DNA of 64,000 bases from Allokutzneria sp. A3M-2-11 16 (GTDB taxonomy: Bacteria > Actinomycetota > Actinomycetes > Mycobacteriales > Pseudonocardiaceae). Of the stretch, positions 1,396-46,345 are shown piece by piece (position 1 is the first letter of the stretch; every line of letters begins with the position of its first letter). The stretch lies in NCBI RefSeq assembly GCF_024213555.1, contig NZ_JANAVO010000001.1, positions 1,612,001 through 1,676,000 of the forward strand, in the 5' to 3' direction. The position numbers were made by a program, and so were the translations under genes. The notes beneath the pieces are model-generated. The model was not told the origin of the DNA, did not search any database, and was given only the letters and a program-made list of their open reading frames with translations.

Positions 1396-3683
<2,288 letters not shown>

Positions 3684-31808: not shown

Positions 31809-31829
31809 CTTGAGCGCGGATCACTCAAC
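31809..31829. promoter_or_regulatory. HAIR element 1 (HspR operator) of dnaK
   Basis: CTTGAGC-N7-ACTCAAC matches the HspR-associated inverted repeat CTTGAGT-N7-ACTCAAG at 12 of 14 positions, 109 bp before dnaK. Confidence 0.85.
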
Positions 31830-31863
31830 TTCGGTTTGACGCCGGACCAGGGGAGACTCCAGA

Positions 31864-31884
31864 CTTGAGCCAGGCGCGCTCAAG
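31864..31884. promoter_or_regulatory. HAIR element 2 (HspR operator) of dnaK
   Basis: CTTGAGC-N7-GCTCAAG has perfectly complementary arms and lies at or just after the presumed transcription start. Confidence 0.85.
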
Positions 31885-31937: not shown

Positions 31938-33778
<1,841 letters not shown>

Positions 33779-41472: not shown

Positions 41473-41943
41473 GTGGCGCCCACCACCCAGACCTGCGTCG
41501 AGCTGATCCAGCACGTCCGCGAGCTCGTCCAGCTCCGGCACGCGGTGGCCCACCGCCAGGTCGAGCCGGGCGAGCCCAGCTTCGCGCTGATCAGCCTGCT
41601 CTCCGAGCTCGACCGGCGCGGCGAGTGCGCGGGCGGCACGCTCGCCCAGGAGCGCGCCGTCGACCCGTCGGTGGTCAGCAGGCAGATCGCCCAGCTGGAG
41701 CGCGCGGGGCTGGTCAGCCGCCGCCCCTCCCCCGGGGACGGACGCGTGCACCTGATCAGCGCGACCCCGAAGGGCACGGCGGTGCTCGACGGGTGGCGAC
41801 GACGGCAGACGGCATGGCTGCGCCAGGCGCTCGACACCTGGCCGGATGACGACGTGAACCGGGTCAGCTCGCTGATCGAGGCCATGGCCCGCGCCGTGCG
41901 CGAGGCACTGGAACCGACAACCCCGGCCGGAGCCGCCCGATGA
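41473..41943 (+). CDS. MarR-family repressor of the downstream efflux pump
   Basis: A 156-residue MarR protein ('GGTLAQERAVDPSVVSRQIAQLERAGLVSRRPSPGDGRVHLISATPKG' is the winged helix). I choose the GTG at 41473 because GGGAGG lies five bases upstream; an ATG at 41458 falls within the operator. The stop overlaps the transporter start by four bases (ATGA). Palindromic sites over the -35 and -10 boxes suggest autorepression relieved by a drug. Confidence 0.88.
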   Translation: MAPTTQTCVELIQHVRELVQLRHAVAHRQVEPGEPSFALISLLSELDRRGECAGGTLAQERAVDPSVVSRQIAQLERAGLVSRRPSPGDGRVHLISATPKGTAVLDGWRRRQTAWLRQALDTWPDDDVNRVSSLIEAMARAVREALEPTTPAGAAR

Positions 41944-43619
41944 GCGAGACCTCCCCGATGACGCACCGCGAGATCCTGCGGGCGATGACCGGGCTGCTGC
42001 TCGCGCTGCTGGTGGCGATCCTCAGCTCGACCATCGTGGCCAACGCGCTGCCGACGATCCTCGCCGACCTGAAGGGCACGCAGGGCCAGTACACCTGGGT
42101 CGTCACCGCCACCCTGCTCGCGTCGACCGCGACCACCCCGCTCTGGGGCAAGCTCGCCGACCTGTTCAGCAAGAAGCTGCTCTACCAGGTGGCCATCGGC
42201 CTGTTCACCCTCGGTTCGGTGCTCTGCGGGCTGGCCCAGTCGATGCCCGAGCTGATCGCCTACCGCGCGGTGCAGGGCCTGGGCCTCGGCGGCGTGCAGG
42301 CGCTGGCGCAGGTGGTCATCGCGGCCATGGTCAGCCCGCGCGAACGCGGTCGCTACAGCGGCTACACCGGTTCGGTGCTGGCCGTGGCCACGGTGGCGGG
42401 ACCGCTGGCGGGCGGCTTCATCGTGGACACCGACTGGCTCGGCTGGCGCTGGTGCTTCTTCGTGGTGGTGCCGCTGGCGCTGCTCGCGATGTACGTGATC
42501 GGCCGGACGCTGCACCTGCCCGTGCTGCGCCGCGAGGTCAGCATCGACTGGGCGGGAGCCACCCTCATCACCGGCGGGGTCAGCCTGCTGCTGATCTGGA
42601 TCTCGTTGGTGGGCAAGAACTTCCCGTGGTTGTCCTGGCAGTCCGGGGCATTCGTGCTCGGCTCGCTGGTGACGCTGGCGGCGGCGTTGGTGGTGGAGGG
42701 CCGGGTGCGCGAACCGGTCATCCCGCTGCGGCTGTTCCGCAACCGCACCCTCGTGCTCGGCGTGCTGGCGAGCGTCGCGGTCGGCACCGGGATGTTCGGG
42801 GCCTCGGTCTTCCTCGGCCAGTACTTCCAGCTGGCCCGCGGGTTCTCACCGACCGTCGCCGGGTTGCTCACGCTGCCGCTGATCTTCGGGTTGCTCACCT
42901 CGTCGACGCTGTCCGGGCAGTTGATCACGCGCACCGGGCGGTGGAAGGGCTTCCTGGTCTCGGGCGCGGTGCTGATGGCGCTCGGGCTGGCGCTCATGTC
43001 GGGCGTGGACCACGGCACCTCGCTCTGGCTGCTGGGCGGCTACCAGCTGCTACTCGGCCTCGGGCTCGGGCTGAGCACGCAGAACCTGGTGCTGGCCGTG
43101 CAGAACTCCACCGACGTCCGGGACCTCGGAGCGGCCAGTTCGACCGTGACGTTTTTCCGCTCGCTCGGCGGCACGGCTGGTGTGTCGGTGCTCGGCGCGG
43201 TGCTGGCGGCGCAGGTCTCCGAACTGGTCACGGAGAAACTGCACGGGGCGACCGGCGGGGACGGCACGCTGGACCTCGCGCACCTGCCCGAGCCGGCGCG
43301 GACGGTGGTGCGCGACGCCTACGGCGACGCCACCGGCCTGCTCTTCCTGATCGCCGCGGTGATCTCACTGGTCACACTGGCCTCAGTGCTGTTGATCAAG
43401 GAAGTTCCGCTGCGCGGCTCATCCACAGGCACTGAGGACAAGCCTGTGGACAACGAACTGGGGATTGGGGATAACTCGGTGCGTCCTGTGGGTACTGGTG
43501 TGAAGCATGTGAGTGAAGTGGCGCTGTCTGGGGGTAGGACGGGCCAACATGTGGAGCAGCGCGGCGGATCTGTGGATTCCGCTGTGGACAAATGGGAACC
43601 ATCCACAGGCCGGAGATGA
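41940..43619 (+). CDS. DHA2-type MFS drug efflux transporter
   Basis: A 559-residue, 14-helix major-facilitator proton antiporter. Motif A-like 'GKLADLFSKKLLYQ' is near residue 64, 'YRAVQGLGLGGVQALAQVVIAAMVSPRERGRYSGYTGSVLAVATVAGPLAGG' covers helices 4-5 (motif C), and the last helix ends near residue 495. The remaining ~65 residues are hydrophilic ('TEDKPVDNELGIGDNSVRPV...'), an extension beyond the usual DHA2 length. The DNA of this tail holds several DnaA-box-like sequences. It is coupled to the upstream MarR gene. Confidence 0.92.
   Translation: MSETSPMTHREILRAMTGLLLALLVAILSSTIVANALPTILADLKGTQGQYTWVVTATLLASTATTPLWGKLADLFSKKLLYQVAIGLFTLGSVLCGLAQSMPELIAYRAVQGLGLGGVQALAQVVIAAMVSPRERGRYSGYTGSVLAVATVAGPLAGGFIVDTDWLGWRWCFFVVVPLALLAMYVIGRTLHLPVLRREVSIDWAGATLITGGVSLLLIWISLVGKNFPWLSWQSGAFVLGSLVTLAAALVVEGRVREPVIPLRLFRNRTLVLGVLASVAVGTGMFGASVFLGQYFQLARGFSPTVAGLLTLPLIFGLLTSSTLSGQLITRTGRWKGFLVSGAVLMALGLALMSGVDHGTSLWLLGGYQLLLGLGLGLSTQNLVLAVQNSTDVRDLGAASSTVTFFRSLGGTAGVSVLGAVLAAQVSELVTEKLHGATGGDGTLDLAHLPEPARTVVRDAYGDATGLLFLIAAVISLVTLASVLLIKEVPLRGSSTGTEDKPVDNELGIGDNSVRPVGTGVKHVSEVALSGGRTGQHVEQRGGSVDSAVDKWEPSTGRR
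43419..43607. other. Cluster of DnaA-box-like sites
   Basis: Two perfect TTGTCCACA boxes (minus strand, 43445-43453 and 43583-43591), one TTATCCCCA (43466-43474) and one TCATCCACA (43419-43427), each a one-base variant of a box consensus, and weaker matches at 43571-43579 and 43599-43607 lie within 189 bp. They fall in the 3' tail of the DHA2 transporter gene. Confidence 0.6.
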
Positions 43620-43670
43620 CCGCGCCCCGCGGGTGACCGACGCCACCACGCGATGTCCCGCCTCAGCTAA

Positions 43671-43691
43671 GTTGAGCGGAACACACTCAAC
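43671..43691. promoter_or_regulatory. HAIR element (HspR operator) of clpB
   Basis: GTTGAGC-N7-ACTCAAC has the HAIR structure (11 of 14 consensus positions) and lies 51 bp upstream of the clpB ATG. It matches the dnaK elements of this window. Confidence 0.8.
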
Positions 43692-43741
43692 CTTTCGCTC
43701 GTTGGTTGGGTGTTGGACCCGGTTGACGATGAGGTAGGGGA

Positions 43742-46345
<2,604 letters not shown>

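Follow-up and report, generated by a model that had tools for sequence, protein, structure and literature searches.

A compact cluster of DnaA-box-like sites lies upstream of clpB in the 64,000-nucleotide stretch of Allokutzneria sp. A3M-2-11 16 analysed here (hereafter the window; contig C11, positions 1612001–1676000, of the strain's own genome, G000), and a syntenic array of the same kind recurs across genera of the family. Its place, strand and spacing are conserved, it is kept whether or not it is translated, and it lies near dnaA. We consider it probable, at roughly 0.62, that the array is a conserved, origin-proximal, non-origin DnaA-box cluster that limits initiation of chromosome replication by titration. 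Binding of DnaA at the cluster, its cooperativity, titration and an effect on initiation are what we infer from this arrangement. How DnaA is controlled is little known outside a few model bacteria, and titration is hard to separate from nucleotide switching. The finding reaches well beyond the window, and its interpretation has as much support as sequence data can give: the array appears to be translated in some genera and untranslated in others.

In the mechanism proposed, DnaA would occupy boxes that are spaced by two helical turns (21 bp) and for the most part share a strand. Lying about 0.2 Mb from dnaA, the cluster would be copied soon after initiation; each new copy would then take DnaA from the free pool, and the next round would be delayed. 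Where the transporter frame runs through the cluster, as it does in the window's genus and a number of further ones, the resulting VDN-repeat tail peptide would be a by-product of constraint on the DNA.

The box cluster and its gene setting

The cluster is located in the 3′ tail of a gene for a DHA2/EmrB-like MFS transporter (41940..43619, plus strand, 559 codons), with the codons past about residue 495 forming the box-bearing tail. A reading made earlier from the sequence alone (the sequence-only reading) had placed it there, and the family models agree: Pfam MFS_1 covers residues 19–414 of 559, TIGR00711 matches residues 14–425 at a score below its cut-off, and the tail lies outside both matches. 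Two MarR-family regulator genes stand directly upstream of the transporter. On the other side is clpB (43742..46345, plus strand; TIGR03346 above cut-off), the conserved neighbour of the cluster. The 122-bp gap between transporter and clpB contains a HAIR-like inverted repeat, TTGAG-N9-CTCAA (43672..43690, plus strand; three in the window against 0.01 expected), a putative HspR site by its consensus. Two HAIR-like repeats at 31810–31883 of the window are likewise positioned directly 5′ of an Hsp70 (dnaK-like) gene that starts at 31938, an arrangement like that at clpB.

A site is defined here as a match to TTRTCCACA with at most one mismatch, unless stated otherwise. Five sites, two of them perfect, occur between 43419 and 43591. 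They are TCATCCACA (43419..43427, plus strand, one mismatch), with A or G as its third base in congeners; TTGTCCTCA (43433..43441, minus strand, one mismatch), invariant across the three congeneric species compared; a perfect TTGTCCACA (43445..43453, minus strand), equally invariant, which opens a series with spacing 21-105-12; TTATCCCCA (43466..43474, minus strand, one mismatch), which follows at +21 bp and is aligned to a perfect Crossiella box; and a second perfect TTGTCCACA (43583..43591, minus strand). When two mismatches are allowed, positions 43571, 43599, 43487 and 43550 are added. The first of these, the weak box GAATCCACA (43571..43579, minus strand), lies at +105 bp in the place that Crossiella and Saccharopolyspora boxes hold in the series, with the second perfect box at +12 bp after it; the weak box CCATCCACA (43599..43607, plus strand) is invariant in congeners. 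Every site named by the sequence-only reading is present where it had been placed, although that list overlooked TTGTCCTCA at 43433 on the minus strand. No structured RNA was matched in Rfam at E values up to 1 over 43300–43800.

The whole 64-kb window contains 13 sites, five of them in 43419–43591. This total is only mildly high, being reached by 4 of 100 shuffles, and the signal is thus the local grouping of sites. Background density in the complete genome of a congener (G001) is 0.243 sites per kb (280 kb sampled in 14 segments of 20 kb); in 13 of the 14 segments no pair of sites falls inside 250 bp, and the remaining segment contains one group of three. Equal box density elsewhere in the genome had been offered as grounds for discarding the cluster. 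Its density is far above that of the G001 sample, although a few clusters in the strain's own genome are as dense or denser.

Distribution across the family

The family survey was anchored on clpB, which was matched in 79 of 80 genomes, with up to 7 kb examined upstream of each; G007 was left out, having no clpB match at the threshold. Contig ends shortened the upstream stretch in five of the 79 (G013, G038, G046, G049 and G062), and genera are not phylogenetically independent in any of the survey counts. Upstream of clpB, a 250-bp stretch with at least three sites was found in 37 of the 79 genomes, representing 23 of 45 genera, and one with at least two in 41 genomes and 25 genera; 38 genomes, from 20 genera, are without even a two-box group. 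With 200 permuted motifs, three-box groups were obtained on average in 0.16 genomes and never in more than 3, and the reversed word gave 1. For two-box groups the average is 2.6 genomes, with a single motif reaching the highest count of 28, against 41 for the real word and 3 for the reversed word; the two-box permutation test is weaker than the three-box test. Chance or a composition artefact would accord with the mild excess of near matches at window level (13, as in 4 of 100 shuffles) and with the one permuted motif that reached 28 genomes under the two-box criterion. The three-box permutation test and the spacing shared between genera speak so strongly against it that it is barely credible, and we reject it on the permuted motifs at the three-box criterion.

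Boxes accompany the transporter where it adjoins clpB. Among the 79 genomes, 23 of 28 transporter-bearing clpB loci have at least two boxes within 250 bp and five, including a Saccharopolyspora subclade, lack such a group. In a set of 30 transporter loci (three from the window's genus), 23 carry boxes in the tail or just past the stop codon; boxes are missing in L067, L071, L075, L076, L077 and L078, and L070 has one weak site. Absence of the boxes from orthologous transporters would have told against the sequence-only reading; instead, transporters of other genera carry them at conserved spacings. Some orthologs from several genera (L067, L070–L073 and L076–L080) have C-terminal extensions of about 260–350 residues, in which repeated carboxypeptidase-regulatory-like sequence, recognized by eye, replaces or follows the box-bearing stretch.

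A broader transporter-locus set comprised the best 80 named loci among the matches listed. In these best 80 loci, 36 perfect boxes fall within 55,349 bp of sequence (the 700 bp past the transporter core) against 10 in 998,585 bp elsewhere. At least two perfect boxes occur in 13 of the 20 listed loci with clpB and in none of the other 60, where just one locus has a box, and only a single one; a general trait of the transporter family is rejected on this basis. A general trait of clpB is also rejected: none of 14 genomes outside the family has two sites within 250 bp in the 7 kb upstream of clpB. Those genomes belong to a set chosen by name, of which 18 of 22 were used; Gordonia, with only 213 bp upstream, was left out, as were Saccharomonospora, whose clpB match was that of G026, and G066 and G069; G026, G066 and G069 all belong to the 79. 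Of further family members in this set, Actinokineospora carries three boxes upstream of clpB, Saccharothrix has a pair at 21 bp, and two Pseudonocardia have no box group there, one of these stretches being only 1.9 kb long.

Spacing and strand

The boxes are arranged with marked regularity. In one genome from each of 25 genera, 89 cluster boxes lie on the minus strand and 14 on the plus strand, and between neighbours on the minus strand a spacing of 21 bp was counted 29 times and one of 12 bp 10 times. The 21-105-12 spacing formed in the window by 43445, 43466, 43571 and 43583 recurs, in boxes with at most one mismatch, in 6 of the 79 genomes, from three other genera (g13, g17 and g46), and three more (g14, g35 and g38) have a 21-x-12 series in which x is 104, 117 or 138. 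By its tail sequence g17 is Crossiella, and the window cluster can be aligned with those of g17 and g46. Perfect pairs 21 bp apart number 38 in 80 whole genomes against 0 for the reversed control; for 23 of the 38, which come from 21 genomes, clpB is no more than 8 kb away. The 21-bp spacing is also present where no transporter was found, and codon phase is therefore no explanation for it.

The window's own genus is a poor representative of this geometry. Its series is imperfect, with one mismatch in the second box, two in the third and, in both congeners, one in the last; a single perfect box is left in the cluster of each of the two congeners, and genome-wide there are no perfect 21-bp pairs in G000, G001 or G002. 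The lack of such a pair in the genus stands against the titration reading, as do the 38 of 79 genomes without a two-box group and the five transporter-bearing clpB loci that lack one.

Constraint on DNA or on protein

In the 41 genomes with at least two boxes, the cluster is coding in 16, partly coding in 3, located after the transporter stop codon in 4 and accompanied by no or only a partial transporter match in 18. In 15 of these 18, from ten genera, the full 7 kb was covered and no transporter was matched, although other coding sequence may be present there. G013 and G046, which have boxes and no transporter match, fall outside these 15 full-length cases, and G014, with only a partial transporter alignment, was not scored as lacking the gene. 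Boxes kept past the transporter stop (4 genomes) and where the transporter was not found (15 genomes) indicate that selection acts on the DNA. The sequence-only reading had envisaged a titration or regulatory locus held inside a coding sequence. The grouping is dense and conserved in orthologs, which partly supports that reading, but the element is tied to the clpB neighbourhood rather than to coding sequence, since it is found past the stop codon and without the transporter as well.

Codon usage bears on the same question. Translated full boxes read VDN and are always encoded as T|GTG|GAY|AA (34/34), and each of the 34 VDN triplets present in the 28 tails from transporter-bearing loci has a T before it and forms a full box. 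By comparison, third positions in the transporter core are T in 3.2% of cases, and 1 of 9 control VDN triplets follows a T. The 34 triplets represent 14 distinct combinations of genus and sequence, and related genomes are not independent. Selection on the peptide, with the VDN-repeat tail as a feature of the transporter protein, would be in keeping with a cluster that is in frame in 16 of the 41 box-bearing genomes and partly so in 3. It does not account for boxes past the stop codon or in loci where no transporter was found, for a 21-bp spacing that holds in the latter, or for a T before all 34 VDN triplets where T fills only 3.2% of third positions. It is extremely improbable, and the coding survey and codon test lead us to reject protein-level selection.

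Within the genus, the boxes are conserved beyond the rest of the tail, a comparison that the sequence-only reading had proposed. Across three species (G000, the strain's own genome, and G001 and G002), variation is seen in 3 of the 63 columns inside boxes and in 28 of the 126 remaining columns of the tail (p = 0.0016). The codon-position pattern is mostly lost in the transporter tail: in comparisons with the window's own sequence, second-position divergence is 8.7% in the tail against 1.2–1.6% in the core. A reduced third-position divergence of the whole tail was not found (0.145 and 0.174 in the tail; the core values are 0.173 and 0.143); only the box columns, not the tail as a whole, are quieter within the genus.

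Candidate functions and known systems

Regulation of clpB or of the transporter by DnaA acting as a transcription factor, rather than a titration sink, is unlikely. This explanation would suit the 12 of 15 full-length transporter-less loci in which the clpB start follows the cluster by no more than about 430 bp, and the HAIR-like site suggests that the clpB promoter is regulated. However, the cluster has no fixed position relative to that promoter, its distance upstream of clpB ranging from about 109 bp to 5.5 kb, unlike a promoter operator, and the boxes of the window are inside the upstream gene. A nucleotide-cycle site with datA-like hydrolysis or DARS-like reactivation, instead of a passive sink, is slightly less plausible still; in its favour, a strand bias and favoured spacings point to a defined nucleoprotein complex more than to loose sinks. 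The sequence disfavours a fixed promoter role and would fit titration and datA- or DARS-like action alike.

DnaA binding at these boxes is predicted from the sequence match, and the word TTGTCCACA could in principle be shared with another chromosome-organizing protein for which the cluster is the true site. We know of no other protein that uses this word. In two actinobacteria, Streptomyces coelicolor and Mycobacterium tuberculosis, it has been published as the high-affinity box for DnaA (PMC4285127), which makes the alternative very doubtful.

Titration by clusters outside the origin has proposed precedents. DnaA-box clusters of Streptomyces coelicolor and Bacillus subtilis can repress untimely initiation (PMC4585315). 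The Streptomyces coelicolor cluster (Smulczyk-Krawczyszyn et al. 2006) is the closest in kind, being in an actinobacterium, built of TTGTCCACA-type boxes and near but outside oriC; it differs in that the single Streptomyces genome examined here has no box group within 7 kb upstream of clpB. The Bacillus subtilis clusters (Okumura et al. 2012) are also near oriC and restrain initiation (PMC4585315), but they are from another phylum, and the high-affinity box of Bacillus subtilis is TTATCCACA (PMC4285127). Escherichia coli datA similarly has five non-origin DnaA boxes that lower active DnaA; unlike the present cluster, it is non-coding and described as working through DnaA-ATP hydrolysis (PMC12371093). 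A conserved region of high DnaA-motif density near oriC of Escherichia coli is comparable in that titration is attributed to origin-proximal boxes, but it is described as a motif-density region, whereas the cluster reported here is one compact syntenic element (PMC12371093). Among the matches listed in a limited literature collection, no paper was apparent on a clpB-linked DnaA cluster or on a DnaA regulatory locus in this family.

A syntenic, strand-biased array in 23 of 45 genera that is translated in only some of them provides a natural series for testing titration, and synonymous changes could remove boxes while leaving the gene product untouched. A DNA-binding array that may shape protein sequence also calls for caution in reading such tails as protein features. 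A more far-reaching view is that a gene has come to overprint an element of replication control, so that fixed box geometry dictates the C-terminus of an efflux-type transporter and transcription strips DnaA from the boxes; transporter transcription would perhaps be governed by the two upstream MarR-family regulators. If true, drug or heat stress would be linked to the timing of chromosome initiation; this is speculative, and we regard it as improbable.

Replication context and other box clusters

The cluster is 261 kb from dnaA, as placed by the coding sequence of the DnaA C-terminal domain at C11:1916366. With oriC assumed to lie in the dnaA neighbourhood, the cluster is outside but near the origin and has several consensus boxes in a short stretch. 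It was rejected as oriC itself because dnaA is 261 kb off and an AT-rich unwinding element is lacking, GC being at least 0.56 in every 50-bp bin over 43100–43800. In all 24 genomes that are complete or nearly so, the distance between clpB and dnaA is 61–320 kb (median 189 kb), with contigs treated as circular. Nearness of clpB to oriC is not separate evidence, because it is inherited with conserved gene order.

Comparison with oriC had also been recommended by the sequence-only reading. The region after the dnaA stop codon (L161, 2875–3229) contains no perfect, three one-mismatch and eight two-mismatch boxes; boxes linked to clpB are singly closer to the consensus than those beside dnaA, though fewer. 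DnaA may thus bind more tightly at the clpB-linked boxes.

TTRTCCACA occurs 127 times in the strain's own genome against 44 times for the reversed word. Other clusters there, among the 100 matches listed, include five perfect boxes in 244 bp (C11:2135182–2135425) and four in 150 bp (C11:2144270–2144419). In G001, perfect boxes (100 of 129 listed) reach a density of 25 per Mb up to about 0.8 Mb from dnaA, against 11 per Mb in the listed remainder; with neighbours merged, the densities for the same 100 of 129 are 17.5 and 10.1 (p = 0.025). The gradient is not sharp, as the other 29 boxes lie in 1.5 Mb at 19 per Mb. Given the other dense clusters and the many box pairs in the strain's own genome, any titration load would be shared.

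The five-box cluster (L162:2683–2926, equivalent to G000:C11:2135182–2135425) is located within an ORF at 2528–3385, slightly upstream of a YcaO gene (Pfam). It lies about 219 kb from dnaA on the opposite side and has the same spacing in G001. As a second family-wide cluster it was rejected: it occurs in G000 and G001 only, and homologs in other genera (G056, G018, G029, G012, G051 and G026) lack the cluster. At L162:11771–11933 of the strain's own genome, four perfect boxes and one near match occupy 163 bp. The boxes TTGTCCACA, TTGTCCCCA, TTGTCCACA and TTGTCCACT (L165:1366–1439) directly precede a gene that Pfam identifies as a D-Ala-D-Ala ligase; the sequence encoding the DnaA C-terminal domain is some 8.5 kb away.

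Scattered tandem pairs of the form TTRTCCACA-N10-TTRTCCACA, 19 bp apart, occur in 51 of 80 family genomes (for example at L163:462–489 and L029:1501–1528). There are 14 in the strain's own genome, 101 in G003 and 66 in G031, with reversed controls at 0, and the 12 pairs of G001 are nearer dnaA than random (p about 0.001).
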